Assembly (NCBI RefSeq): GCF_038007965.1
Contig: NZ_JBBOYD010000001.1
Coordinates: 908,501-972,500 of the forward strand
DNA length: 64,000 bases
Direction: 5' to 3'
From: Niallia sp. FSL W8-0635
GTDB lineage: Bacteria > Bacillota > Bacilli > Bacillales > Cytobacillaceae
A program made the translations under genes and the position numbers. Shown here one piece after another: positions 5,202 to 22,967 of this stretch (position 1 is the stretch's first letter; every line of letters begins with the position of its first letter). The notes under the pieces were generated by a model that was not told where the DNA came from, ran no database searches, and saw only the letters and a program-made list of their open reading frames with translations.

Positions 5202-6779
5202 TTAATAACCAGAGTCTTCTGAGGTAAGATTATCTATCAGTTTATAATCATATTTTTGTAATGGCTTCTCTGCAGGTCCTTCCAGCACTTCCCCTGCATA
5301 CGAGAATCTAGAACCATGGCACGGGCAATCCCAAGATCGTTCACCATTATTCCATTTCACTTCACACCCCATATGAGTACAAGTTGTATCTACGATATGA
5401 AGCATACCCTCTTTATCTCTATAAGCCCCTTTTCTGTGCCCATCAATGTCAATAACAGCCCCCTCATCGTTGGCTAGATGATGGATACTCTTCTGAGGAA
5501 TTTCTAATTTCCCTTTAATTAAATGACTAACAACGTTCGCATTTTCCGTTAAGAAGTTTTTCAGACTTGGATTCGGATGAAAACGGGAGGGAGAATATAA
5601 TTCCTGGTATTTGTTCTTTTTTCCTAGTATGATATCACGGAATAAAAGCGCAGCTACGGTTCCATTTGTCATCCCCCATTTCCGATATCCACTAGCGATT
5701 AATATATTTTTTTGACCAGGGGTAATTTCGCCAATGTAAGGAATCTTATCCAGTGTAACTAAATCTTGAGCTGACCAACGGTATGTAATATTTTCAATGC
5801 CGAATACTTGTTGACCGAAAGTCTCCAAGGCCTCGTAATGTTTGAGTGTTTCCCCTCCTTGTCCTGTTTTATGACTTTCTCCAGATATAAGAATCATTTC
5901 TTCGCCATTGATTGTTGCATAGCGGAGAGATCTTTTCGGTTCCTCGGCACTAATATACATTCCACCTGGATATTCTGTTTTTATTTTAGCAGCAATAATA
6001 TAGGAACGGTCTGCATGCATTCTTGTAGAGTAAAGTCCTGCCCCTTCATAAAAAGGGAAATGAGAACAGGTAAGAACGTATTTTCCTGTAATTCGAGCTC
6101 CTCCACGGGTAAGCACGACGGGGTGTTCGCCAGTTTCTATATCTACAGCTGTTGTATTTTCAAAGATGTATCCACCTTTTTCGGTAATTATTTTTGTAAG
6201 ATGAGCCAAGTATTTAAGTGGATGGAATTGTGCTTGATTTTTCATAACAAGTGCATTAAATATTTCTAAATCGAAAGGGAGTTTATTTACGAGTTCGCCT
6301 TCAATAAGAAGCTCCTTATAGGCATCTGCCTCTTTTTCTAGTTTAAGTGCATATTCTTCTGTTGTGCTATAAACATACGCATCTTGCTGAGTGAACTCAC
6401 AATCAATTTGATGTTTATTGATTGTTTCTTGAACAAAGTTTAAAGCATCGGTGTTCGCCTCGTAGTATAATCTTGCCATCGTGTTCCCAGCATAGCGGAT
6501 TAGTTCTTCATAGATTAAATCATGCTGGGCAGTGATTTTAGCTGTGGTATGTCCTGTTGTCCCGTTCAGTAATTTGTCTGCTTCGATAATAGCAACTTTC
6601 AGCCCTTCATTCGCCAGCAGATAGGCAGAAGTAATGCCTGTAATGCCACTACCTACAATAACGACATCAACTTGCACGTCATGCTCAAGGCGGGGGTACT
6701 CTGATAAATGAGTCGTGTTTATCCAATATGATTCTGCGTTAGGCGGTAATTTTCCATTGTAATTAGCGTTGGTAGTCAC
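5202..6779 (-). CDS. yhfW: FAD-dependent oxidoreductase with C-terminal Rieske domain (YhfW-like)
   Basis: A 525-residue two-domain protein. The N-terminal DAO-type FAD domain has VVIVGSGITGITSAYLL near residue 40 followed by an E-ending strand (VAIIEAD). The C-terminal Rieske domain has CTH (C467, H469) and CPCH (C485, H488), the four ligands of a [2Fe-2S] cluster. The same architecture is found in B. subtilis YhfW and is taken to be cytosolic; the substrate is not established. It is a single gene convergent with the ABC remnant, and its stop is 34 bp from the hairpin at 5119-5168. Confidence 0.85.
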   Translation of the reverse strand: MTTNANYNGKLPPNAESYWINTTHLSEYPRLEHDVQVDVVIVGSGITGITSAYLLANEGLKVAIIEADKLLNGTTGHTTAKITAQHDLIYEELIRYAGNTMARLYYEANTDALNFVQETINKHQIDCEFTQQDAYVYSTTEEYALKLEKEADAYKELLIEGELVNKLPFDLEIFNALVMKNQAQFHPLKYLAHLTKIITEKGGYIFENTTAVDIETGEHPVVLTRGGARITGKYVLTCSHFPFYEGAGLYSTRMHADRSYIIAAKIKTEYPGGMYISAEEPKRSLRYATINGEEMILISGESHKTGQGGETLKHYEALETFGQQVFGIENITYRWSAQDLVTLDKIPYIGEITPGQKNILIASGYRKWGMTNGTVAALLFRDIILGKKNKYQELYSPSRFHPNPSLKNFLTENANVVSHLIKGKLEIPQKSIHHLANDEGAVIDIDGHRKGAYRDKEGMLHIVDTTCTHMGCEVKWNNGERSWDCPCHGSRFSYAGEVLEGPAEKPLQKYDYKLIDNLTSEDSGY

Positions 6780-8834: not shown

Positions 8835-9081
8835 TATTGTTTTGGGCCCCTTTCCTTTAAAATCTCTATATCATATGCCTATCCTATCCAAATGGATATA
8901 ATATAGTTGGTAAAAAAACAACCTCACCCGTAGTTAGGGAATGGGATATTTTCCAAATAGTATTTCAAAGTCGGTGGCACCATTTTTTTGTGACACCATT
9001 TTAAATGAAAGTTGGGGTTATGCCTTTACAAATTTGTGGTATAACAACCATGAAAACATATCTTATTTTTCAGAATTCAAT

Positions 9082-9119
9082 TGAGAATCGTTTTCAGCAA
9101 ATGGAATTTAGTGTATAAT
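9082..9119 (+). promoter_or_regulatory. promoter of the TctA/mevalonate cluster with a Fur-like dyad
   Basis: A TATAAT -10 (9114-9119) with TTTTCA 17 bp upstream (9091-9096) forms a plausible sigma-A promoter. The 7-1-7 sequence TGAGAAT-C-GTTTTCA (9082-9096) overlaps the -35 and matches the Fur box pattern TGATAATNATTATCA at 11 of 14 defined positions. Iron control of the cluster is only a possibility. The rest of 8835-9186 holds a TGGCACC/TGACACC repeat fragment near 8974-8999 and no gene. Confidence 0.45.
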
Positions 9120-9186
9120 CTTCGTGGGGAAGCGGAACCTAACAGTATGCTCATTTCTGCTCATTAAATACAAGGAGTTTGATTAT

Positions 9187-9432
9187 ATGGATAATAAACA
9201 TAATCAAGATACAAACGATAATATTGAAGTCTGGGAGGATCTTGTTCAAATAAAGGATTTGGTTATGGCACTAGTTATTTGTAGTATAACGACTATGGGT
9301 GCCTATTTTATCGCGCCAAATGAAGCGCCAAAGCCATTGTTTTTTGGCCTTGCTGGTGCACTTATTGGGTTTATCATTTGCAGTTTTATTATTAAGCCAA
9401 AAAGAAACTTTAAGGGAACAGGAGATAAATAA
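9187..9432 (+). CDS. small two-span membrane protein coupled to the TctA-like permease
   Basis: I start at ATG 9187, preceded by AAGGAG, rather than at upstream codons. The 81-residue product has an acidic cytoplasmic-type lead, two hydrophobic helices (about 25-43 and 50-68) and a basic tail. Its stop codon TAA shares one base with the ATG of the permease, so the two are translated together. By position it may be the small subunit of the transporter, analogous to TctB, although it is shorter than typical TctB and no sequence family is recognised. Confidence 0.7.
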   Translation: MDNKHNQDTNDNIEVWEDLVQIKDLVMALVICSITTMGAYFIAPNEAPKPLFFGLAGALIGFIICSFIIKPKRNFKGTGDK

Positions 9433-10781
9433 TGGACATCGTATTAATTATAGAGATGATTGCTGCTGCCGTATTAGCAGCTGTTTTATATACAATAATC
9501 GGTGTTGCACCAGGGACAGATGAAACGGCTGTTTTAGCACCGGTGACGTTAGCGATCGTATTGGCAGGGGTAGAGCCAATTGTAGTTTTAACCTTCTTTA
9601 TTTCTGCGATTGTGGCCAATAAAGTAACAGATTCGATTCCGGTTGCTCTCGCTGGTATTCCTGGCGGGGTGATGGCGACTCCGATGGTGGAGCATGCACT
9701 CGTGTTAAAAAAACATGGCATGCCTGATATCAGTATTCGCAAAATGGCATCCGGTTCTGTCATCGGGACGCTCGTTTCGGTTCCCGTAAGTTTACTGATG
9801 GCACAAGCTTTAATCCCATTTTCTGATGTCATCAAAGAATACGCAAATCCTCTCTTTTTCATTGGTGCCGTTTTACTTGCATTAATGACAAAAAATAAGT
9901 TGTTAGCCCTTGTATCGATTCTTCCATTTGCTCTATTAATTGAAGGCTTGCGCTATCTTTATTGGGGAATTGGCGTTGTACCAGAGGAAACGAATGTCTT
10001 CACTTCTTTCTTCTTAGGAATCACAATCGGTCCCGTCATTCTGACCTTGTTTGAACTTTTACATAAAGAAAAACGAGATAGTATGCCAAGATTTCCGAAG
10101 AAAACGATTGATTTTGCGCAAACGAATCCCGTTAAAGGATTCCCAAGTCCCTTTAAACTATTGACTAAACAGGAAACTGGATCGAGTATGCTTGCTAGTT
10201 TTATTGGCTCGATTACCTTTATTATGAGCCCTGTTGGCATGACTATTTTCCTTGGAGAACTTTTTTCAAGCAGGGTCAAAGATCCGGTGAAAAAGGCTTC
10301 TGTAGCTATCGCGTCTATGGAGGGGCTGACTAATGCTACCTATATTTCTGGAACCTTGATTCCGTTAATTGCACTCGGTATCCCATTGTCTCCAATGGCG
10401 ATTGGTCCAGCAAATGCACTTTTTAATGCACCGCCAGTGTTTACAACAGAGCATAATCTGCATCACCTCTTATCGAATGCAGACTTTGTCTGGGCAACTC
10501 TCATTGGTGCAACGATTGCCCTTGCGATCACGTATTTTGTTACCGTAAAATATGCCCACAAAATCTGTGCTTTTGTGTTCCGGTGGGTTCCCCACGAAGC
10601 AATCCTAGGACTATTTTTTGGACTTGTGCTATTATTAGCTTTTATGGACGCTGGTTTTATCAATATTATCGGTGTTCTAGTCATTGGGTTATTTGCTGGT
10701 ATGCTTCATCGATGGGGCGTGAATTATGGCGTACAGTTTATGATCCTTTATTCAGCGCCATGGATTATTACTTGGTTTTAA
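9432..10781 (+). CDS. TctA-family (tripartite tricarboxylate transporter-like) membrane permease
   Basis: A 449-residue polytopic protein with about ten hydrophobic segments. Glycine/proline-rich loops typical of TctA are visible: GVAPGTDETAVLAPVTLA early on, SIPVALAGIPGGVMATPM, and IPLIALGIPLSPMAIGP in the second half. TctA proteins import carboxylates, usually with a binding protein and TctB; neither is nearby apart from the 81-residue neighbour. It is followed after 63 bp by mevalonate kinase in the same direction. Since mevalonate is a monocarboxylate, import of mevalonate is an attractive inference. A 14-bp palindrome (TTCATCTAGATGAA, 10799-10812) separates the two genes. Confidence 0.75.
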   Translation: MDIVLIIEMIAAAVLAAVLYTIIGVAPGTDETAVLAPVTLAIVLAGVEPIVVLTFFISAIVANKVTDSIPVALAGIPGGVMATPMVEHALVLKKHGMPDISIRKMASGSVIGTLVSVPVSLLMAQALIPFSDVIKEYANPLFFIGAVLLALMTKNKLLALVSILPFALLIEGLRYLYWGIGVVPEETNVFTSFFLGITIGPVILTLFELLHKEKRDSMPRFPKKTIDFAQTNPVKGFPSPFKLLTKQETGSSMLASFIGSITFIMSPVGMTIFLGELFSSRVKDPVKKASVAIASMEGLTNATYISGTLIPLIALGIPLSPMAIGPANALFNAPPVFTTEHNLHHLLSNADFVWATLIGATIALAITYFVTVKYAHKICAFVFRWVPHEAILGLFFGLVLLLAFMDAGFINIIGVLVIGLFAGMLHRWGVNYGVQFMILYSAPWIITWF

Positions 10782-10844
10782 AAATTAGACAAGAGATATT
10801 CATCTAGATGAACATCCAATTTTTCTATGAAAGTGGGGATATCG

Positions 10845-11795
10845 ATGCTTGAAACTCCACAAAAAGTTGCGGTAGGCCGAGCACATAGTAAATTGATTTT
10901 AATTGGAGAACACTCGGTTGTTTACGGACAACCAGCAATTGCTTTTCCATTTAAACAAATAGAAGTAAAAGTAACAGTGAAAAATATCGGGGGAAATGCG
11001 ATACAAATCGAAAGCCCTTTTTATCAAGGACCGATAGAACAGATTCCTGAAAAGATGGAGGGAATTGGTGATTGTGTCATCCAAACATTAAAGGTTCTTG
11101 AGCAACGTTCTTCAGGATTAAAAATTCAAATTGCATCCTCGATTCCAATTGGACGGGGATTAGGTTCAAGTGCAGCGATTGCGATTGCACTTGTTCGCGG
11201 TCTTTTTGCCTTTTTTAATCAAAAGCCCAAGCATAGTCAACTGATGACATTGGTGGAGCGTGCGGAAAAATTTGCTCACGGAACGCCAAGTGGAATTGAT
11301 ATGATGGCGGCATCTAGCGCCAATCCAATTTGGTTTCAAAAACAACAAGAGGTTGAAAGTGTGAAAATAGGTGCTCCCTTTCATTTGGTCGTAGCAGATA
11401 GCGGCAGGGTTGGCGATACTTATTCAGCAGTTAAATCGATTCGTGATAAGTACGAAATGAAACCAGAAAAAATCGAGGAATCCATTACACTACTTGGCAA
11501 ATGGACGGAAGAGGTTCGTTTAGGACTAGCAGTTGGTGATTATCAAAAGGTTGGCGAAAAATTAAACCTAGCACACCATCATTTAGCCTTGTTAGGTGTC
11601 AGTGATGAAGGATTAGATCATCTCGTCGATACGGCTCGAACTTCTGGAGCAATAGGCGCGAAATTAACAGGTGGTGGCCGTGGTGGTTGTATTTTGGCAC
11701 TAGTAGAAAATGAGACTATCGGCAAAAAGGTTGCGGATGCCTTGATACAAGCTGGTGCTGCTCAAACATGGCGGTACACGATAGCTAAATGCTAA
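10845..11795 (+). CDS. mvaK1: mevalonate kinase
   Basis: The start at ATG 10845 is chosen because GTGGGG lies 6 bp upstream; ATG 10827 has none. The 316-residue product is a GHMP kinase with KLILIGEHSVVYGQPAIA at the N-terminus, the phosphate-binding loop PIGRGLGSSAA (about 101-111), SGIDMMAASS, and the C-terminal KLTGGGRGGC. These match mevalonate kinase (ATP-dependent phosphorylation of mevalonate to 5-phosphomevalonate, cytosolic). It is the first of four consecutive mevalonate-pathway genes. Confidence 0.92.
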   Translation: MLETPQKVAVGRAHSKLILIGEHSVVYGQPAIAFPFKQIEVKVTVKNIGGNAIQIESPFYQGPIEQIPEKMEGIGDCVIQTLKVLEQRSSGLKIQIASSIPIGRGLGSSAAIAIALVRGLFAFFNQKPKHSQLMTLVERAEKFAHGTPSGIDMMAASSANPIWFQKQQEVESVKIGAPFHLVVADSGRVGDTYSAVKSIRDKYEMKPEKIEESITLLGKWTEEVRLGLAVGDYQKVGEKLNLAHHHLALLGVSDEGLDHLVDTARTSGAIGAKLTGGGRGGCILALVENETIGKKVADALIQAGAAQTWRYTIAKC

Positions 11796-11818
11796 TTATA
11801 AAATGAGGAGTGTGGTTA

Positions 11819-12799
11819 ATGGAAGCGATCGCTCGAGCTCACACGAATATTGCATTAATAAAATATTGGGGAAAACGTGATTCCAAATTGTTTTTACCCA
11901 TGAACAGTAGTTTATCCATTACATTGGATCATTTTTATACAGAAACAAAGGTACAGTTTTCTGATCAGTTTGAGAAGGATTCCCTCGTATTAGATGGAAA
12001 TCAAGTTTCAGAGCATGAGCTAGTAAAAATAACAGCGTTTCTAAATCATGTACGTAATCTTGCAGGTACCAATACCTTTGCAAAGGTGACATCGGTGAAT
12101 CATGTGCCAACAGCTGCTGGATTTGCTTCTTCGGCTTCTGGATATGCGGCATTAGCAGCAGCAGCAAGCAAAGCATTACAATTAGATTTAACAGGTACAG
12201 AGCTTTCTGCTTTAGCTCGTCAAGGTTCTGGTTCTGCTTCTCGCTCTATTTTTGGAGGATTTGTTGAATGGCAAAAAGGAGAGAAAACGGACGGAACGGA
12301 TTCGTTTGCGACACAAATCATAGACGAAAAAGCGTGGGATGTGAGTGTTCTATCTGTTGTGGTGGAAGCTGGTCCTAAGTCTGTTTCGAGCAGAGATGGT
12401 ATGCAACGGACAGTAGATACATCGCCATTCTATGATGGCTGGTTAGCTACTATCGAAGAGGATTTAATACAGATTAAGGAAGCAATTAGCACTCGTGACT
12501 TTACGAAGCTAGGGGAAACTGCTGAAGCGAATGCCATGAAAATGCACGCTACGATGCTAGGAGCAAAGCCACCATTTTTATATTGGCAAAGTGCAACATT
12601 TGACGTTATGCAAAAGGTCATGGAATTGCGCCAACATGGCTTAGAAGCTTATTTCACCATTGATGCAGGTCCAAATGTAAAAGTGCTTTGTGAACCTAAG
12701 AATGAACAGATGATAAAAGATAAGCTAGCTGATTTACCTTCTGTTCGTGATGTGATTGTATGTCATCCAGGACCTGGGATTCAGTATTTATCTGAATAG
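11819..12799 (+). CDS. mvaD: diphosphomevalonate decarboxylase
   Basis: ATG 11819 follows GAGGAG with an 8-bp gap; an upstream in-frame ATG at 11810 overlaps the ribosome site. The 326-residue enzyme shows NIALIKYWGKRD (10-21), the ATP loop PTAAGFASSASGYAAL (about 97-112) and RQGSGSASRSIFGGFVEW, all hallmarks of the decarboxylase that converts 5-diphosphomevalonate to isopentenyl diphosphate using ATP. It lies 23 bp behind mvaK1 and 60 bp before mvaK2. Confidence 0.95.
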   Translation: MEAIARAHTNIALIKYWGKRDSKLFLPMNSSLSITLDHFYTETKVQFSDQFEKDSLVLDGNQVSEHELVKITAFLNHVRNLAGTNTFAKVTSVNHVPTAAGFASSASGYAALAAAASKALQLDLTGTELSALARQGSGSASRSIFGGFVEWQKGEKTDGTDSFATQIIDEKAWDVSVLSVVVEAGPKSVSSRDGMQRTVDTSPFYDGWLATIEEDLIQIKEAISTRDFTKLGETAEANAMKMHATMLGAKPPFLYWQSATFDVMQKVMELRQHGLEAYFTIDAGPNVKVLCEPKNEQMIKDKLADLPSVRDVIVCHPGPGIQYLSE

Positions 12800-12859
12800 A
12801 ATGGATAATAGCAAAAAAGATAACTGTTTAAATTAGCACTTTAAAGGGAGTGAGTCTGG

Positions 12860-13936
12860 ATGCACGAAATCAAAGTTCCAGGGAAACTTTTTATTGCTGG
12901 GGAATACGCCGTATTGGAACCAGGCTATCCAGCAATTGTGGTAGCAGTTGATAGGTATATTACAGCGAGAGTGGCAACTAGTGAACGACAGACTCTTTCT
13001 TTGCCACAGTTAGGTCTTCCTAATGTCGCTTGTCGGTTTGAACAAGGGCAAGTCGTTTTTGAAGAGACAGATGCAAGATTGGATTTTATAAAAAATACAT
13101 CTGATGTGGTCCATCAATATTTACGTGAAAGGTCGATTGAAACCAAGCCTTTTTCCCTCACGATAACGAGTGAATTGGATGATGCAGATTCTGGCCGAAA
13201 ATACGGATTGGGTTCAAGTGCAGCAGTAGTTGTCGCCGTTGTAACCTCTATTTTAAAGTTATATAGAGATTGCTTGTCTGTTTCTAAAACCCTTATTTTT
13301 AAACTTGCTGCAATTGCTCATTATCAGACACAGGGGAGCGGTTCCTGTGCAGATGTGGCAGCATCGACCTATGGCGGTTGGCTCCACTATACAGCGTTTA
13401 AAGCGAGCTGGTTAAAAGAAAAGATTATGGAGCAAGGATCTATTTCTCCATTGTTGGAAGAGACATGGCCATATTTACAGATCGAGCAGCTAGAAGCCCC
13501 TGAGGAATTAGTACTTGCTGTTGGCTGGACAGGTAGTTCTGCCAAAACAGCTTCTTTGATAAAAAAGATCGAGCCGCTTAAAAATCAAAATTCCACTATT
13601 TATGGAGAATTCTTACGTAAAAGCCGTGATGCCGTTTCTACTATGGTTGAAGGCTTTAAACATAATAAAATGGAGTTAGTGATGGCAAGCTTATCCGCTA
13701 ATCGGTCGGCATTGTTAGAGTTAAGTCAAGAGACTGGTGGAGCAATTGAAACGATTCATTTAGAAAAACTAATTGCAATTGCTAATCATAACGGAGCCGG
13801 TAAATCGTCTGGAGCAGGTGGCGGCGATTGTGGAATTGCTTTTACAAGTACAGACAAACTTGAACAATTACATAAAGAATGGCAGGAGGCTGGTGTCGTT
13901 CCTTTAGATATCCACCCTGCAACCAAATATAATTAG
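12860..13936 (+). CDS. mvaK2: phosphomevalonate kinase
   Basis: A 358-residue GHMP kinase with an N-terminal PGKLFIAGEYAVLEPGYPAI, ATP loop KYGLGSSAAVVVAVV (about 110-124), QGSGSCADVAASTYGGW and a C-terminal GAGKSSGAGGGDCGIAF. These identify the firmicute-type phosphomevalonate kinase, which makes 5-diphosphomevalonate. The RBS AAAGGGAG precedes the ATG. The gene order K1-D-K2 is the one familiar from staphylococci and lactic acid bacteria. Confidence 0.95.
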   Translation: MHEIKVPGKLFIAGEYAVLEPGYPAIVVAVDRYITARVATSERQTLSLPQLGLPNVACRFEQGQVVFEETDARLDFIKNTSDVVHQYLRERSIETKPFSLTITSELDDADSGRKYGLGSSAAVVVAVVTSILKLYRDCLSVSKTLIFKLAAIAHYQTQGSGSCADVAASTYGGWLHYTAFKASWLKEKIMEQGSISPLLEETWPYLQIEQLEAPEELVLAVGWTGSSAKTASLIKKIEPLKNQNSTIYGEFLRKSRDAVSTMVEGFKHNKMELVMASLSANRSALLELSQETGGAIETIHLEKLIAIANHNGAGKSSGAGGGDCGIAFTSTDKLEQLHKEWQEAGVVPLDIHPATKYN

Positions 13937-13951
13937 ACTGGAGTTTGTAGA

Positions 13952-14971
13952 ATGACTGATTCAATTGACAAAAGAAAAGCCCAGCACATTGAGTTGGTTT
14001 TAAATGAGAAAGTAACAGGTGATAACATAACGACTGGTCTTGAAAAGTATCGTTTTTTACATAATGCCTTGCCTGAAATTGATTTTGACGAAATTACATT
14101 AGACACAACGTTTCTAGGTAAAAAGATGAAGACGCCTTTCTTGGTAAGCTCGATGACTGGTGGAGCTGCAATGGCGGAGACGATTAATCGAAACCTTGCC
14201 ATTGCTGCAGAGGAACGAGGTTGGGCATTTGCCTTAGGTTCCACAAGAGCGCTCATCGAAAATGAAAAATATCGAGAATCCTTTCAAATTCGAAAATATG
14301 CACCAACCATCCCAATCATCGCCAATTTAGGTGCGGTGCAGTTTAATTATGGATTTGGAATCGACCAATGTAAACAAATTATCGAGATGACAGAAGCAGA
14401 TATGCTCGTTCTCCATTTGAATAGTATTCAAGAAATTATTCAACAAGAAGGAGATCGTAATTTTAAAGATCTGTTAGGGAAAATCGAGCAAGTATGTACA
14501 CAGCTAGATATTCCCGTTGGAGCAAAAGAGGTAGGCTTTGGAATCGATGGGACCATCGCCAAAAAATTGACCGACGTTGGAATCTCCTTTATCGATGTCG
14601 CAGGTGCAGGCGGTACATCATGGAGCCAAGTGGAAAAGCTGCGCTCCAAAGAGAAAATTAAGAAAATAGCAGCCGAAGCTTTTACTAGCTGGGGGATTCC
14701 AACTGCTGAATGTATTGTTTCCGTTAACGAAGCGATTGACAAACCAATCATCGCCAGTGGTGGAATCAAAAATGGAATGGATGCTGCTAAGGCTATCGCG
14801 CTTGGATCAGATATGGTTGGTTTCGCCCGTTCCATTCTAAAAGAAGCGACAGAATCACCAGAAGACCTGATAGAGGTTTTTGAAATCAGAGAGCTAGAAC
14901 TGCAGATGGCTATGTTTGGAATTGGTGCGGCAACTATTGAAGAATTGAAGGGAACAGATAGGATTAAGTAG
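13952..14971 (+). CDS. fni: type 2 isopentenyl-diphosphate delta-isomerase (FMN-dependent)
   Basis: A 339-residue TIM-barrel flavoenzyme. It has RKAQHIELVLNE at the start, the FMN-contact loop SSMTGGA, the LGSTRALIE segment, NLGAVQ, and phosphate-binding glycines at IASGGIKNGMDAAKAIALG. It interconverts isopentenyl and dimethylallyl diphosphate. It starts 15 bp after mvaK2, so it completes the cluster that turns mevalonate into both C5 units. Type 2 isomerase usually accompanies the mevalonate pathway in Gram-positive bacteria. Confidence 0.95.
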   Translation: MTDSIDKRKAQHIELVLNEKVTGDNITTGLEKYRFLHNALPEIDFDEITLDTTFLGKKMKTPFLVSSMTGGAAMAETINRNLAIAAEERGWAFALGSTRALIENEKYRESFQIRKYAPTIPIIANLGAVQFNYGFGIDQCKQIIEMTEADMLVLHLNSIQEIIQQEGDRNFKDLLGKIEQVCTQLDIPVGAKEVGFGIDGTIAKKLTDVGISFIDVAGAGGTSWSQVEKLRSKEKIKKIAAEAFTSWGIPTAECIVSVNEAIDKPIIASGGIKNGMDAAKAIALGSDMVGFARSILKEATESPEDLIEVFEIRELELQMAMFGIGAATIEELKGTDRIK

Positions 14972-15244: not shown

Positions 15245-16210
15245 ATGACAGAAAATTTTTGGCGTGACTTGCCTCGGCCATTTTTTGTGCTTGCACCTAT
15301 GGAAGATGTGACGGATGTTGTTTTTCGCCATGTGGTGAGTAAAGCAGGTAGACCGGATGTGTTTTTTACCGAGTTTACAAATACGGAGAGCTATTGTCAT
15401 CCAGAGGGTAAACAAAGTGTCCGTGGACGACTAACTTTTACAGAAGATGAACAGCCAATGGTTGCACATATATGGGGAGACAAGCCTGAATATTTTCGCC
15501 AAATGAGTATTGGTATGGCGGAGCTTGGATTTAAGGGGATTGACCTTAATATGGGCTGTCCTGTACCAAATGTGGCAGCTAAAGGGAAGGGCAGTGGGCT
15601 TATCCTACGTCCAGAAGTCGCTGCAGAATTAATCCAAGCGGCGAAAGCGGGAGGATTACCTGTAAGTGTGAAGACAAGACTTGGTTATACGGAAATAGAA
15701 GAGTGGCGCGATTGGTTAGCACATATATTGGAACAAGATATCGCCAATCTTTCTATTCATTTACGTACAAGAAAAGAAATGAGCCAAGTGGATGCCCATT
15801 GGGAGCTAATTCCAGAAATCAAGAAGCTGCGTGATCGTATCGCACCAAATACCCTTTTGACAATCAATGGGGATATTCCTGACCGTCAAACTGGCTTGAA
15901 GCTAGCTGAACAATATGGTGTTGACGGGATTATGATTGGTCGTGGAATTTTCAAAAATCCATTTGCCTTTGAAAAAGAACCGAGAGAGCATAGCAGTAAG
16001 GAATATTTGGATCTCTTAAGATTGCAGCTGGATCTCCATGATAAATATTCAAGTGAATTAGAACCCCGTCCATTCCAAGCTCTTCATCGCTTTTTTAAGA
16101 TATATGTAAAAGGATTTAGAGGGGCGAGTGAATTGAGAAATCAATTGATGAGCACCAAGTCGACGGATGAAGTGCGTGCGATGCTTGATGGATTTGAGAT
16201 TGTTGAGTGA
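15245..16210 (+). CDS. dus: tRNA-dihydrouridine synthase
   Basis: A 321-residue FMN-dependent enzyme that reduces uridine to dihydrouridine in tRNA D-loops. The N-terminal [20 protein letters not shown] and [20 protein letters not shown] carry the FMN-binding strand and the catalytic Cys (in GCPV), followed by [18 protein letters not shown] and [10 protein letters not shown]. Bacilli usually carry two or three dus paralogues; which one this is cannot be told. It stands alone between a palindrome and a terminator. Confidence 0.92.
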
Positions 16211-16441: not shown

Positions 16442-17719
16442 TTGATAAATAATGCATGGAAAGATTATTTATATAAATATATCTTATTGAAAAATGAGGA
16501 GCTTAATTTACTGGACATTAGAGAGAATAATGGAATTTTAGATATTCCTGTGATAAAAAAGACTTCTCGAACTAGAAGGACTGTTGCGATGTTGACGGTG
16601 GGGATTAATCATCAAATTAACCCTCCAGAACATTTGGTGAGTGGCTTTGCAAGTCCAAAGTCTAAGAAACAATTTGTACTTACAGATGAAATTTATGAAT
16701 TTATTCGTAATGCATGGATTATTAGAGAATATCGCTTGGCAAAAGACGAACGAACTGTGAAAAGTGAACAGTTTCGCATGGGATTGTCTTTATTCCAATA
16801 TAAAAAACAAATGGAGGCTGAACAAGAAACATTGAGAACTGAATCCATTCTCGAATGGAAAAATCAATGGATTAATATAAAGAATTGTTCTTCCGCGCAT
16901 AATCATGAACGAATAGACAAGCTTAATAGATTAAAAGATATATTAGATGAAATTGTAGCAAAAGATAAAATTAACAGTATTAATTCTACTTGGAGATTTC
17001 AAAAACAACTTTTATTTCTACACTTTTTAGTAGCTTTTTATCAAATTTCAATGGTCGAACATCATTTTGATTGGAAGCAAATTGGTGCAAGGTATTACAG
17101 GAAAATAGGCGGATCAAAGGAATTTGATGCATACAAAAAGGAATTTATTGAGGTTGCCGAAGAGTTACTTGAGTATCCATTACATTTACTTGGGCTAAGT
17201 AGTTTAGGTACGATTACTTCCATATATTTTACTGGACCAATGCAGGGGGATAGTGCTTCATACAATTATGGAGCAATTCATGCAACTACAGATTTAGCGG
17301 TTTTCACCGAGGAATTTAAAACGGAAGCCGATGTATTGTGGTTAGTTGAGAATAGAGGGATTGTAACGCGGATGGGTTATGAAAGGGATTTTTTAATAGG
17401 CTCTAACAGTTTTATATTAGGGATAGATGGCCAGTTAAGGTCCGCGCATCGACGATTAATTGAACAGTTGGCTTCTACTGTTAAACAAGTGATTATTTGG
17501 ACAGATGTTGATGAAGCAGGACTCATCATTGCTAAAGAAGTAGGAGAAACGGTACAAAAATTTCAGGCAATAACTAAATGGGTTGTTCCACCATTAGAAG
17601 TCGCACTAAATTTTGAAGAGTTTCAATCGCGATATGAAAGAGCTATACAGGTTAAGAAAGAAGAACAGGAGCAGGAGATTGGAGGAGTAGAACTTTGGAA
17701 AAAATGGATCAATCCTTAA
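16442..17719 (+). CDS. jetD: Wadjet system protein JetD (toprim nuclease subunit)
   Basis: A 425-residue protein with a TTG start supported by GAGGGGG 8 bp upstream. The C-terminal part is a Toprim-like domain: VLWLVENRG at about 299-306 gives the catalytic Glu, and IIWTDVDEAG at 351-360 gives the DxD pair. The N-terminal ~250 residues are helical and act as an arm in JetD relatives. In characterised Wadjet systems JetD is the topoisomerase VI-like nuclease that cuts small circular plasmids after the SMC part has extruded them. It overlaps jetA by 25 bp. Placing jetD first is unlike the A-B-C-D order of type I systems. Confidence 0.85.
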   Translation: MINNAWKDYLYKYILLKNEELNLLDIRENNGILDIPVIKKTSRTRRTVAMLTVGINHQINPPEHLVSGFASPKSKKQFVLTDEIYEFIRNAWIIREYRLAKDERTVKSEQFRMGLSLFQYKKQMEAEQETLRTESILEWKNQWINIKNCSSAHNHERIDKLNRLKDILDEIVAKDKINSINSTWRFQKQLLFLHFLVAFYQISMVEHHFDWKQIGARYYRKIGGSKEFDAYKKEFIEVAEELLEYPLHLLGLSSLGTITSIYFTGPMQGDSASYNYGAIHATTDLAVFTEEFKTEADVLWLVENRGIVTRMGYERDFLIGSNSFILGIDGQLRSAHRRLIEQLASTVKQVIIWTDVDEAGLIIAKEVGETVQKFQAITKWVVPPLEVALNFEEFQSRYERAIQVKKEEQEQEIGGVELWKKWINP

Positions 17720-19104
17720 TTTCTATTTTTAACATGGATATGGAGAAACCAGAGCTACTCCAAACAATGCGGGATATGGCTGCTTTAGCTGGTGTTTTGA
17801 ATGAATTAAGTGATAAAGAATCATTTCAGGCTCCAAAGAATGTATTACGCTTTATACGCATACTTAATCTCATTAATCAGGAAGCACTTGGTATCACTGA
17901 TCCAATTGAAAATGAGGACACACTCTTTTATCGGTATCGTCACACATATGGATACGATGAAGAGATGACTATTGAATATGTGAAGCACTTAATCTATATA
18001 TTAGGGAAATTTAATTGGATAACGAAGACAGCGAAGCGCATTAAGATGCGCGATTTAGGAAAAAGAATGATGGATGTATTAATTCGATTGGCAAATGATT
18101 CACTTGCTTATTATATGAATGACGATGTGGCCAGATCCTTGTTTCAAGCAAAAAGAGATGCAGAAATTAGTGAAGCTTATGATGACAAAGGTATTTCTGG
18201 AGGAAATAAATTAGCTAGTATGATCAAGAATGTAGAAGAAGCAATTTTATTACTAAAGGAAAGAGAACTAGAATATTTAGCTGATCGAAATGCGTTATCA
18301 CAAGTAGAAGTAATTCATCAACTGATGAAAGAATTGGAAATGAAAATGGTGGAACGTCTAGCTAAATTTGAGACATTGGATCAGGAATTAGTATTTGCAT
18401 CTATCAAGCAGAGGGGTATGACAGCTATAAGTGAAGGAACCAAGATTAGCCTTGGTACCATTAACAAAATTTTGAAGTTTGCACATATACAAGAGACTAA
18501 TTTTATTGAAACGATACAACCAGATTTACTAAGAAATTTTATCGTGCAAACATTTGATCCGCCAATGGGTTCAGATATTCCAAATGCTCATCAAATTCTT
18601 AGTTTTATGGAACAAGGACAGTATGAGGATGAAAATATGGAGGGCCTTTGGGTTCCGATTAAATTCGCTAGCCCATTATCTCCTACCGCTATTGTTGAAG
18701 GTATAGACTATATTGAGAATTATGAACCTATCACAGATGAAATTGAAGAAAAGATGGATGCTGATTTTCAAGAGATTGAAGAAATCATGGAGGAGAAGTT
18801 AGAAGAAGTAATGGGTGATTCAAAATGGCAAATGACGAAGCAAATGATTCATACCGAGCATATTGAAAAATACCTTGCTGAGGTAGAAGAAGCCGGATTA
18901 GATGAGTTAGTTATACAAGCTGGCTCTGAAAAATGGAGTGATGTATTAAATGGTTTAATCGGAGTATCTGCACTGGTGGCAAATAAAAAGGCAGATATTG
19001 ATGAAAAAGCAAACCGAAAATTACTAGGTAATATGGAAAAAAGAGATTGGAGGTGGACCGATGATGAACAAGGAAGCTATGGAATTAGAAAACGAGGCAA
19101 ATGA
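17695..19104 (+). CDS. jetA: Wadjet system protein JetA (MukF/kleisin-like)
   Basis: I choose TTG 17695 because GGAGGAG ends 7 bp before it; ATG 17704 would be too far. The 469-residue protein is acidic and helical with a long coiled-coil-like centre (about 165-245) and an acidic segment near 345-375. It lacks signal or membrane segments. Position and size match JetA, the kleisin that bridges JetC heads and holds JetB. Sequence families are less obvious than for JetC or JetD, so the call relies partly on operon context. It overlaps jetB by 44 bp. Confidence 0.8.
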   Translation: MEKMDQSLISIFNMDMEKPELLQTMRDMAALAGVLNELSDKESFQAPKNVLRFIRILNLINQEALGITDPIENEDTLFYRYRHTYGYDEEMTIEYVKHLIYILGKFNWITKTAKRIKMRDLGKRMMDVLIRLANDSLAYYMNDDVARSLFQAKRDAEISEAYDDKGISGGNKLASMIKNVEEAILLLKERELEYLADRNALSQVEVIHQLMKELEMKMVERLAKFETLDQELVFASIKQRGMTAISEGTKISLGTINKILKFAHIQETNFIETIQPDLLRNFIVQTFDPPMGSDIPNAHQILSFMEQGQYEDENMEGLWVPIKFASPLSPTAIVEGIDYIENYEPITDEIEEKMDADFQEIEEIMEEKLEEVMGDSKWQMTKQMIHTEHIEKYLAEVEEAGLDELVIQAGSEKWSDVLNGLIGVSALVANKKADIDEKANRKLLGNMEKRDWRWTDDEQGSYGIRKRGK

Positions 19105-19771
19105 ATCTATTAACAATAATCCCTTGTATGCATTACAGTCGCTACAAGGATTTTTAACTAAAGAAGAAGAGCTTACTTTTATGCAAATTTTATTTTCCTC
19201 CTCGGCAACGATTCGACAGGGGAACTTTGGGCTTTCCCGCAAAGAGGTGGAGAAATTACTTGGAGCAAATGAGGAAGAAGCATTTTTTTCTTTTTTAAAG
19301 CGAGTAAATCAAGCAGTTAGTCGGTATTTCAAAGTTGTTTATGATGAACGAAGAAATCAAGTAGTGGTGTTGATGCGTGTCCCTGCAAAACAAGCAAGAA
19401 ATGTGTTAAATAAAGAGAGCTTGGCGATTCTTATGTTTATTTTTTACCATCAAGAAGTGCTTCAAAATGAATATACATTATTTTCTCAATTGATAAATAG
19501 TTTCGGTCATGAATCCTTACAGGTAACAAGAAAAATTCAAGCTAATTTAGATCCACTAAAAAAAATCGGAGCAATCGAAATATATAATACTAACTCGGAT
19601 GAAGAGGCTTACCAATTAACAACCATTGGTACCCATCTATTTTCTGATTCATTTTTACGAAGATACGCAGAGTTCAGTCAATCCAATCAGCTTCATATGG
19701 AGGATGTTCTTCGCTTCTTTAAGCGCTACAACATGAATGGAGGTTTACAGAATGATACCTTGGAGGATTAG
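19061..19771 (+). CDS. jetB: Wadjet system protein JetB (MukE-like)
   Basis: A 236-residue protein with GGAGGTGG 5-7 bp before ATG 19061. The sequence suggests tandem winged-helix folds as in MukE (for example NVLNKESLAILMFIFYHQEV and LDPLKKIGAIEIYNT). In Wadjet complexes JetB is a kleisin-associated dimer. The gene starts inside jetA and ends inside jetC (20-bp overlap), indicating coordinated translation of the complex subunits. Confidence 0.8.
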   Translation: MMNKEAMELENEANESINNNPLYALQSLQGFLTKEEELTFMQILFSSSATIRQGNFGLSRKEVEKLLGANEEEAFFSFLKRVNQAVSRYFKVVYDERRNQVVVLMRVPAKQARNVLNKESLAILMFIFYHQEVLQNEYTLFSQLINSFGHESLQVTRKIQANLDPLKKIGAIEIYNTNSDEEAYQLTTIGTHLFSDSFLRRYAEFSQSNQLHMEDVLRFFKRYNMNGGLQNDTLED

Positions 19772-22700
19772 ATTTTCAGGAATTAGGGATTATATTCCAA
19801 CTGTAATGGATTTATCTGGGGAACTCGATCATATTCTTATCTCTGGACCAAACGGAGCAGGTAAATCAACCGTCACATTTTGTATAGGTGGGGTTCTTTA
19901 TTCCAGTAAAGTAGACGTGGAAGGACTAAAGTCTAATAATCTGCCTTCTGATCATACTTGGCGAGCAAAAATTGATTTTCTATTCAAAAATGCAGGGAGA
20001 ATTAAGGTGGATGCCCCTCTTTTTGTTCAATTCCGTTTGGAAATTGAACAAAAACCTGGAGAGCCAATAAAGAGAGAGTTTTATATTGAAGAAGGGGACG
20101 AAATTGATAAATGGGAGCGAACCACGAAATTCACTAGCGGCGGTAATTTGAATTTTTCGGAATATAAAAATCAAGTGCTATATAAGTATGCTGTCGATCC
20201 TGATGCTTTTTATTTGATTTGGTATCAAAAAGAAGTAAATCAGTTTGCAGTTATGCATCCAGAGGAACGTTTTCGAATTTTTAGTGAGATGAACGGTATT
20301 GATAAAATCCAGAAAAACTGGGAAGAAAGTAAGGAGCTTGTTAAGGAAACAGAACAAAGCTTAAAAGAAGCAGAAAGCAAACAAGGTCTCAATAAAATGC
20401 ATTTAAAGCAAAAGAAAATGGAACTTGATAGGTATCATGATCGTAATCGGCGACGTGAAGAAGGCTTTAACCAATATTTCAGAGGATTAAAATGGTTAGA
20501 AGCATACTATCTAAAGCAAATCGACTCTTTGAAATTTCAAATTGAAGATTTATTAGAGGATAAAAAGGAAAAGATTGATACCAATCAGGAGATTAGAATT
20601 CATTTTGTTGAGAAAAAAGAAGAACTTGAACAGTTCAGGACGCTGCTTAACCAGCTTGAAAATCAAGATAATGAATTTAGAGTAGAAGTAAAAGAAATTA
20701 ATGAACAGCTAAAAGAGACGAATGAAAAAATAAACACTATTTCCGACCAGATTTCGGAAATCACAAAACAAGTTGACCGTATTGGTATGTCAGAAGAGGA
20801 TGTGTTAGTAAAATTAGGGGAAGCAGAGAAGAAATATAAAGAGATAGATGATTCTATTAAATCAATGATTACAAAGGCACAAAAACTATGGAATTATCTG
20901 AATGACTTAACTTCAAAACAAGCAAAATTGTCTCTAGAGATTAAACAGGATAAAGAGCAGAAAAGAAAATTCAAAGATTTGATAGAAACATATAAAAGTA
21001 GTAATGCGATTCAAGGGGAGATGGAAACAAACAATCGTGATATAGAACGAAATAAAGATAGATTACGAGAGTTGAATGAAAAGAATCAAAAGATTGAAAA
21101 AGAGCTGTCTCTCTTAAAAAATAATAAAGTGTATAATCCTCGTCAAGAGCAGTCCATCCGATTTTTCGAAAAAAATCAAATTGATGTTTACCCGTTACGA
21201 GAACTTGTGGAATTAGATGAGACAGCTAGCCAGCAAGATGAATATTTATTCGACACGATTAAATATACTATATTCGTTAATAAAAAAGTATTTCAAGCAC
21301 CTAATGATCTATATCATGTTTCTTTACCCGACTTAGTCCCAGATAAAACATTGATACATTTACCTGACAAACATTTAAAGGTTAAAGATCATCTAGATGA
21401 CTATCTTTATCCATATGCAATAAAAGCGCTTTGGTGGGTAGAATCATTTTTTAAAGAAGAGAAACCTTTAATCCTTAATGGCCAACTTATAGATAATAAG
21501 GGGATTCGAGGACCACAAGAGGGAAAAAGAATTATTTTAAGTGAAAAAGTACTGAAATTCCACCAAGTTAAATTGGAGGAAGAGTTAACTCAGCTAAAGA
21601 AAGAAAAGCTTCAACTGGAAAAGGAAATACAGGAGCTTAACAATCGAAACTCTATCTTATTTAGCAGGAGAGAGTCACTTAAAGAGGCAGAAGCCTTTTT
21701 AACGAAAGAAAATGAAAGAGAATGGCGGCAGAGTCAGTTTGAAAAGGTAAGCAAAGAGAAAGAAGCTATAGAGAATGAATATCAAATGATTCAAGATGAA
21801 TTAAATGAACAAAGCAAGTTATTCGCTAAATGGGAACAAGCTGTGTCAATCCACCAAGAATATTTAGAAATCTACCAACGCTTTCGGAAAGAACAAGCAA
21901 AAATATTGGAAGTTCAAAGATTAAATAGTCTACTAGCTGAACTTCATCGAAATAAAATAGAAAAAAACAATCAATTAAATGAGATTTCAGATACACTAGA
22001 TACAAAACGTCGTGAAGAAAAACAGTTAATTAGGAAATTAGAAGATTTAGAAACCGATCTTGATTATCAAGATCGAGAAATCGAACAAATTGAAAGGCAA
22101 ATAAAAATAAGATCTGAAGAGCGTGTATCAAACGAAGAGGGATATTCTCGTACAAGAAAAGAAGTACAAAAGCTTCAAGAAATCTCGGGAGATTTAGTGG
22201 ATAAGTTCCATGATGAGATGGGGCATTTCTCTGAGTTGACAAAATCTCAATCAGAGGAATTACGTAATAATGGGAAAGTAACCTTTGATTTTGCGATAAC
22301 TGAACCTGGGATAGATGAAGCAGCTCCAGAGAACTATGCAAAAATGAAAGAAGAATATGATCGATCAGAAAATGAAGTGAAAAAATCAAAAATTTTATTA
22401 GAAGAATATTCAGAACGAATGGAACAGTTTAAAGAGGATTTAGAAGATACGATCAATATGAAAATCATCGGTGTGAATCAGAAATTTATTAATTATATGT
22501 CTATATTCGGTTTTGAAGGAAAAATTGACTGGGATATGAATACCGATCGCCGAGGACAAATTCGCTATACTTTATTTATTAAAGCAAGAAAAGAAGGACA
22601 TCGTGGAAAGTTAGAGGATGTAAGTGTTAAAGCACGAGGTGGGAAAGTTGGGAAGGGAGTCTCAGGTGGAGAAGAATCACTCAGTTCTTTATTGTTTGCA

Positions 22701-22967
22701 CTAGCATTATTACAAACAATCGAAGCATCGCCAGGATACATCGTACTAGATGAATTTGATAGTGCACTTGATGAAGGAAGAAAGGAAAAAGTGTTTGGAT
22801 TATATGAACAAGAATTGCAACGGAAAATGATCATTCTTACTCCAAAATCTCATGAGGAAGATTATTTATATCGTTTCTCTAAGGCTTATGTTGTGCACCA
22901 CAATCCCAATATACCTAAAAGTACAGTGTTTAAAGTCAAACGAGTTAGAGATAAAGTGACTGATTAA
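19752..22967 (+). CDS. jetC: Wadjet system protein JetC (SMC/MukB-like ATPase)
   Basis: The start at ATG 19752 is favoured by GGAGG 8 bp upstream; ATG 19737 overlaps that site. The 1071-residue protein has Walker A GPNGAGKST at 32-40, two long coiled coils (about 180-480 and 600-880), a central globular hinge (about 480-600), the ABC signature SGGEE at 971-975 and Walker B GYIVLDEFD near 995-1003. This is a complete SMC ATPase, shorter than MukB. It powers DNA loop extrusion on circular plasmids before cleavage by JetD. The gene ends the operon; a terminator lies 200 bp further on. Confidence 0.92.
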   Translation: MIPWRIRFSGIRDYIPTVMDLSGELDHILISGPNGAGKSTVTFCIGGVLYSSKVDVEGLKSNNLPSDHTWRAKIDFLFKNAGRIKVDAPLFVQFRLEIEQKPGEPIKREFYIEEGDEIDKWERTTKFTSGGNLNFSEYKNQVLYKYAVDPDAFYLIWYQKEVNQFAVMHPEERFRIFSEMNGIDKIQKNWEESKELVKETEQSLKEAESKQGLNKMHLKQKKMELDRYHDRNRRREEGFNQYFRGLKWLEAYYLKQIDSLKFQIEDLLEDKKEKIDTNQEIRIHFVEKKEELEQFRTLLNQLENQDNEFRVEVKEINEQLKETNEKINTISDQISEITKQVDRIGMSEEDVLVKLGEAEKKYKEIDDSIKSMITKAQKLWNYLNDLTSKQAKLSLEIKQDKEQKRKFKDLIETYKSSNAIQGEMETNNRDIERNKDRLRELNEKNQKIEKELSLLKNNKVYNPRQEQSIRFFEKNQIDVYPLRELVELDETASQQDEYLFDTIKYTIFVNKKVFQAPNDLYHVSLPDLVPDKTLIHLPDKHLKVKDHLDDYLYPYAIKALWWVESFFKEEKPLILNGQLIDNKGIRGPQEGKRIILSEKVLKFHQVKLEEELTQLKKEKLQLEKEIQELNNRNSILFSRRESLKEAEAFLTKENEREWRQSQFEKVSKEKEAIENEYQMIQDELNEQSKLFAKWEQAVSIHQEYLEIYQRFRKEQAKILEVQRLNSLLAELHRNKIEKNNQLNEISDTLDTKRREEKQLIRKLEDLETDLDYQDREIEQIERQIKIRSEERVSNEEGYSRTRKEVQKLQEISGDLVDKFHDEMGHFSELTKSQSEELRNNGKVTFDFAITEPGIDEAAPENYAKMKEEYDRSENEVKKSKILLEEYSERMEQFKEDLEDTINMKIIGVNQKFINYMSIFGFEGKIDWDMNTDRRGQIRYTLFIKARKEGHRGKLEDVSVKARGGKVGKGVSGGEESLSSLLFALALLQTIEASPGYIVLDEFDSALDEGRKEKVFGLYEQELQRKMIILTPKSHEEDYLYRFSKAYVVHHNPNIPKSTVFKVKRVRDKVTD

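Follow-up and report, generated by a model that had tools for sequence, protein, structure and literature searches.

A six-gene operon of the window, the 64-kb stretch of DNA analysed here, probably encodes a TctAB mevalonate importer that works without TctC, together with a salvage pathway that would feed an iron-sulphur-free bypass of IspG and IspH. Import of mevalonate by TctA and its small partner, a substrate and a direction that we infer from sequence comparison, is highly likely, and regulation of the bypass by iron, with the benefit that this would bring, is moderately favoured. External mevalonate would thus enter the cell through TctA and the small TctB-like protein, with no TctC; MvaK1, MvaK2 and MvaD would convert it to IPP, and Idi2 would balance IPP and DMAPP, with the MEP pathway kept as the main isoprenoid route. 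Under iron shortage, IspG and IspH would falter and the MEP route would be hit, and Fur would release the operon, so that mevalonate from neighbours would feed the iron-free bypass. To our knowledge, neither the lower mevalonate enzymes nor Idi2 are iron-sulphur proteins. IspG and IspH are [4Fe-4S] proteins, as stated in the accessible part of PMC11218510. Iron shortage would thus be expected to hit the MEP route while lifting Fur from the salvage genes.

The operon and the isoprenoid routes of its genome

The operon consists of six adjacent ORFs, in the order TctB-like gene, tctA, mvaK1, mvaD, mvaK2 and idi2 (Table 1), so that the lower mevalonate half, the three mva genes and the isomerase, is all present in the window. 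In a profile search, all four enzymes scored above the curated NCBIfam cut-offs. The sequence-only reading, which had placed four consecutive lower-pathway genes directly behind a TctA-type permease and a small partner on the same strand, is thus borne out in its gene set; only its start, at 10845, has to be moved, as it falls 18 bases within the mvaK1 ORF. The closest named TctA, with 94% identity, is that of Niallia circulans, and the operon is also found on a contig of N. circulans NBRC 13626. Elsewhere in the window, a Wadjet-type operon (JetD3, JetA3, JetB3 and JetC3 at 16442-22967, PADLOC) lies just downstream of a Dus-family gene (15245-16210), and an FAD-dependent oxidoreductase with a C-terminal Rieske domain is encoded on the minus strand at 5202-6779.

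Table 1. Features of the putative mevalonate salvage operon, in window coordinates.
Feature	Position	Strand	Remarks
Fur-box-like 15-mer TGAGAATCGTTTTCA	9082..9096	+	11/14 consensus positions; overlaps putative -35
Putative -10, TATAAT	9114..9119	+	Read from sequence; invariant in six species of Niallia
TctB-like small protein, 81 aa from ATG	9187..9432	+	Homologue precedes TctA in relatives
TctA-type permease of 449 aa, putative mevalonate importer	9432..10781	+	PF01970, 94.5 bits (cut-off 28.9)
mvaK1, mevalonate kinase	10827..11795	+	TIGR00549, 258 bits (cut-off 163)
mvaD, diphosphomevalonate decarboxylase, GTG start	11810..12799	+	TIGR01240, 361 bits (cut-off 171)
mvaK2, phosphomevalonate kinase	12860..13936	+	TIGR01220, 346 bits (cut-off 166)
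idi2, type 2 isopentenyl-diphosphate isomerase	13952..14971	+	TIGR02151, 420 bits (cut-off 281)

We then considered the make-up of the transporter. The TctB-like protein and four homologues from relatives gave no match to Pfam TctB up to an E value of 10. TctC (PF03401) had no match in 18 of the 41 genomes with this TctA or its relatives, so that an importer in those 18 cannot depend on TctC; the nearest TctC on the same contig was found about 84 kb away (in G362), and in the genome of the window the distance is 3.4 Mb. The predicted structure of TctA has a mean pLDDT of 82.8; Foldseek retrieved no PDB match for the model at E 0.001 or better, and phmmer returned no solved relative of note for the sequence.

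The genome of the window (G000; 5.14 Mb in three contigs) was searched for the two upper-pathway genes and for the MEP genes dxr and ispH. The mvaS model TIGR01835 gave no match over its cut-off (360) in this genome or in any of 41 genomes, and its two partial matches in G000, at 40 and 33 bits, were rejected as HMG-CoA synthases and are presumably ketoacyl-synthase-like instead. Similarly, a whole-genome profile search for HMGR (PF00368) was negative for G000 and positive for 2 of 41 genomes. As positive controls, 14 named genomes were searched, with mvaS over the cut-off in one and HMGR in five. On the other hand, dxr was present in all 22 genomes searched and IspH in 50 of 58, G000 included in both. 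The lower mevalonate genes of G000 are thus an addition to the MEP pathway and not its replacement, and the lack of an upper pathway, earlier noted for the window, extends to the whole genome: a genome with mvaS and mvaA and devoid of MEP genes, which would have spoken against scavenging, is the reverse of what was found.

Transporter and HMGR across related genomes

To place the operon among its relatives, we used two samples, in which mvaD scored over the cut-off in 21 of 193 genomes (family sample) and 33 of 397 (order sample), giving 53 distinct mvaD-bearing genomes, as G000 is counted in both. Second TIGR01240 matches, of about 19-32 bits in many genomes, were left uncounted, as they probably belong to further GHMP kinases, for example IspE. 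The HMGR search covered all 53 genomes, and the searches for mvaS and IspH those 53 plus five more. As a result, 33 of the 53 genomes have neither HMGR nor mvaS, and all 33 carry IspH; 18 have both HMGR and mvaS, eight of them without IspH; and two (G022 and G103) have HMGR without mvaS. The eight genomes without IspH among the 58 searched all carry mvaS and HMGR. Several of the lower-only genomes are incomplete (G392, 80%; G367, 87%; G065, G179 and G415, 94%).

Presence and linkage of TctA, scored from at most eight candidates per genome in the family sample and at most four in the order sample (E cut-offs 1e-30 and 1e-60), were compiled by hand from the search results; a search for related loci with TctA as the query gave seven. 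A TctA of at least 59% identity is present in 30 of the 33 mvaD genomes without HMGR versus 5 of the 20 with HMGR (Fisher p 1.3e-6). Linkage of TctA to the lower genes is still more uneven, at 28/33 versus 1/20 (p 6e-9), with linkage in G415 not judgeable, as TctA and mvaD lie there on short contigs; in G570, TctBA is unlinked to mevalonate genes. The lower-only genomes without such a TctA are G475, which has a TctA of 41-42% divergent from mvaK1, and G392 and G065, with neither HMGR nor TctA. Locus L055 of G065 has a divergent mvaD (53%), and tblastn found no mvaK1, mvaK2 or TctA in its 14-kb contig. Among the genomes with HMGR, TctA adjoins a second HMGR in G362, G474 and G551; G388 has TctA, HMGR and mvaS, with TctBA unlinked to mevalonate genes; and G527 has TctA within the lower operon, plus HMGR and mvaS. 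The TctA of G338, G493 and G532 (43-45%) adjoins neither lower genes nor HMGR.

HMGR changes at least seven times on supported branches of the mvaD tree. With correction for kinship, about five of seven supported independent pairs had linkage running opposite to HMGR and none had it running in parallel (sign test, median p 0.06), and TctA presence ran opposite to HMGR in about 4.4 pairs (median p 0.125), with a same-way pair in a few of 200 pairings. The trade-off between TctA and HMGR thus keeps a consistent direction after correction, which is suggestive and not conclusive alone. In the family sample, a close TctA (at least 71%) occurs in 14 of the 21 mvaD genomes versus none of the 172 mvaD-less genomes. 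Across the loci compared, three distinct gene orders are found around mvaD. The co-occurrence of TctA with mvaK1-D-K2 that scavenging predicts is seen across genomes, and TctA in relatives is tied to mevalonate genes, the opposite of the tricarboxylate linkage that would have spoken against scavenging; the earlier proposal of mevalonate scavenging gains support from this linkage and from the trade-off, as judged from gene content.

Remnants of the transporter were found where HMGR exists. Only TctA residues 390-447 (G176) or 403-449 (G485) are left ahead of mvaK1, three TctA pieces lie there in G289, and G022 and G103 retain only the TctB-like gene. All five are HMGR genomes; G176, G289 and G485 also carry mvaS, and the TctA candidates scored per genome include no further one in any of the five. 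One could regard the lower genes as the decaying and now idle rest of a complete pathway, as the missing upper genes and the presence of dxr and ispH might suggest. However, the window genes are open and score over their cut-offs, mvaD does likewise in 53 genomes of many genera, and what decays in relatives, in the presence of HMGR, is the transporter, which makes such idleness extremely improbable.

TctA was furthermore found in a second context. It adjoins HMGR in eight loci, including all five TctA relatives detected in mvaD-less genomes: three of the 172 in the family sample (G060, G078 and G098, 41-43%) and the only two in the order sample (G420, 64%; G489, 59%). None of these five genomes has mvaS. 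HMG-CoA lyase adjoins in two (L124 and L160) of the seven HMGR-TctA loci compared. TIGR00532, the 'degradative' HMGR model, matches the three TctA-linked HMGRs scanned, of the eight, at 406-465 bits; as it also matches HMGRs of other contexts, one beside mvaS, at 335 and 385 bits, its name alone is no proof of catabolism or direction. Mevalonate is the metabolite common to mevalonate kinase and HMGR. On the TctA tree, which like the mvaD tree comprises hits longer than 250 aa, the five HMGR-linked TctA with 59-65% identity group in a single supported clade, and the position of this clade among the lower-linked proteins has weak support; the Clostridiales row and the two outgroup rows are partial sequences, the outgroup lies very far off, and deep branching is weak. 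TctA also adjoins mvaK1 on an Izimaplasma contig (50%) and mvaK2 on a Clostridiales contig.

Related HTH-cupin regulators lie near the HMGR-TctA clusters (L126 7391-7951, L124 11229-11747, L160 6061-6651) and are candidate mevalonate-responsive regulators. In L076 (G102), the HMGR next to an above-cut-off mvaS is split into two frames that overlap (9052-10349), which reflects either a sequencing error or a broken gene. In G022 (L077 12545-17744, by domain scan) and G103 (L072 7788-12799, by homology), HMGR lies next to a carboxyltransferase, an enoyl-CoA hydratase and an acyl-CoA dehydrogenase, and these genomes, which have no mvaS, possibly obtain mevalonate from leucine-derived HMG-CoA.

Such leucine-degradation-like clusters show that odd sources of mevalonate exist, and one may thus ask whether mevalonate is made inside the cell by another enzyme, with TctA exporting it or carrying something else. 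This is scarcely credible, as PF00368 matches no HMGR in G000 or in the other 32 lower-only genomes, and TctA beside HMGR, in two loci also with HMG-CoA lyase, calls for import. Transport of an ordinary carboxylate, for instance citrate, by a TctA whose adjacency is an inherited chance order is likewise very unlikely. In its favour, the Pfam family takes its name from tricarboxylates, the sequence does not reveal the substrate, the searches turned up no solved relative, and six TctA of the tree adjoin neither module; for one of these, G415, the contig is too short for a judgement. Against this stand the three gene orders with two different mevalonate-using neighbours, the HMGR trade-off with remnants where HMGR exists, and the lack of a close TctA in all 172 mvaD-less family genomes. 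A chance neighbourhood of TctA and the lower genes was rejected on the trade-off, the remnants and the second linkage, to HMGR.

Fur-like boxes ahead of the lower genes

Upstream regions were scored against TGATAATNATTATCA, which we take to be the Fur box consensus. In the window, TATAAT follows TGAGAATCGTTTTCA 17 bases on, and 13 of the 15 positions of the site are invariant in six species of Niallia, three of which score 12/14. A Fur-like box of at least 12/14 precedes 18 of the 28 intact TctBA-lower operons of HMGR-less genomes versus 16 of 699 control upstreams (300 bases each, from other ORFs of at least 100 aa in the same loci, which may include false ORFs); at 11/14 or better the counts are 23/28 and 61/699, and five operons score below 11. 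For this count, L056 stands in for L052 (G179), which has 2 bases of upstream sequence. Six of the 28 operons (G052, G174, G175, G177, G434 and G513) have boxes of 14/14.

None of the seven HMGR-led lower operons reaches 11/14. However, among the 13 other HMGR genomes, five that lack the importer have boxes of 13-14/14 ahead of the lower genes (G022, G102, G169, G170 and G176; 14/14 in the last three), and the Fur-like box thus marks the lower genes, not the importer alone. The score of G289 is 9 or 13, depending on the assumed start of its TctA remnant. When 260 bases were scored at the HMGR-TctA loci, with L170 left out, none reached 12 and L160 reached 11. An FNR-like TTGATnnnnATCAA was also observed immediately before the Fur box of some operons (L036 6736-6749, L049 6712-6725).

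These data bear on a rival in which importer and salvage are the same and iron is neither trigger nor purpose, with economy in general, stress on the MEP pathway from oxygen or NO, or another regulator in its place. The 11/14 of the window site, the five operons without a site of at least 11 and the FNR-like motif by some promoters would fit it. The boxes of 14/14 in six operons and in the importer-less G169, G170 and G176, the excess over controls at 12/14 and the near invariance of the site in Niallia speak for iron, and we regard a non-iron trigger as possible but the less likely case. The window site alone is unconvincing, since 61 of the 699 controls reach 11; it is the lineage-wide pattern that carries the prediction of Fur control.

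Two observations go beyond the sequence-only reading: the transporter also occurs with HMGR in genomes without mvaS and mvaD, and Fur-like boxes lie on many related operons. We lean, by a narrow preference, towards a family of TctAB-only importers with two uses, HMGR catabolism and a Fur-controlled salvage that bypasses the MEP pathway free of iron-sulphur proteins, in which mevalonate would be a public good that free-living bacteria trade when starved of iron. As part of this reading, the family would extend across the order and, if the one Izimaplasma and the one Clostridiales contig are a guide, beyond it, and lineages acquiring an HMGR of their own, supplied with mvaS from acetyl-CoA or perhaps by leucine-derived HMG-CoA, would tend to lose the importer.

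Significance and comparison with known systems

If the proposal is correct, naming the importer would account for lower-only mevalonate pathways, cross-feeding would be predicted between mevalonate makers and bacilli, and metabolic engineers would gain a natural import protein. Should Fur control hold, isoprenoid supply would join the iron-sparing response, and such strains would be predicted to resist MEP inhibitors, for example fosmidomycin, in the presence of mevalonate. The open-access titles and beginnings of abstracts that we examined mention neither a gene for a bacterial mevalonate transporter nor a link to Fur.

The mevalonate pathway is known in bacteria from Staphylococcus, Listeria and others. 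The window shares with it mvaK1, mvaD, mvaK2 and idi2 of the same NCBIfam families, but differs in that its genome has no mvaS over the cut-off and no HMGR and keeps MEP genes, and an importer is proposed. Pseudomonas mevalonii catabolizes mevalonate with HMGR and HMG-CoA lyase. The likeness there lies in the coupling of mevalonate uptake, as proposed here, to its use, with relatives of TctA adjoining HMGR, in two loci with the lyase; unlike that system, G000 has no HMGR, and the product would be IPP, not acetoacetate. The survey of incomplete and dual isoprenoid pathways in PMC13001223, in its accessible part, does not describe a lower-only route with an importer.

With the tripartite tricarboxylate transporter TctABC, the operon shares a PF01970 permease directly preceded by the gene of a small partner. 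It departs from that system in having no TctC beside it and a partner of about 80 aa which, though in the position of TctB, has no Pfam TctB match. The TctB of such systems is a 19-kDa protein with four transmembrane segments, TctA is viewed as the core transporter, and archaeal TctA without TctB or TctC exist, according to the part of the review PMC5812351 consulted, whose main text does not contain the word 'mevalonate'. In the accessible text of PMC12405511, several bacteria are said to have mevalonate import systems, with no gene named there, and yeast JEN1 was evolved into a mevalonate importer. That importer is an engineered MFS protein, unlike TctA, but there, as proposed for the window, imported mevalonate feeds the lower pathway.
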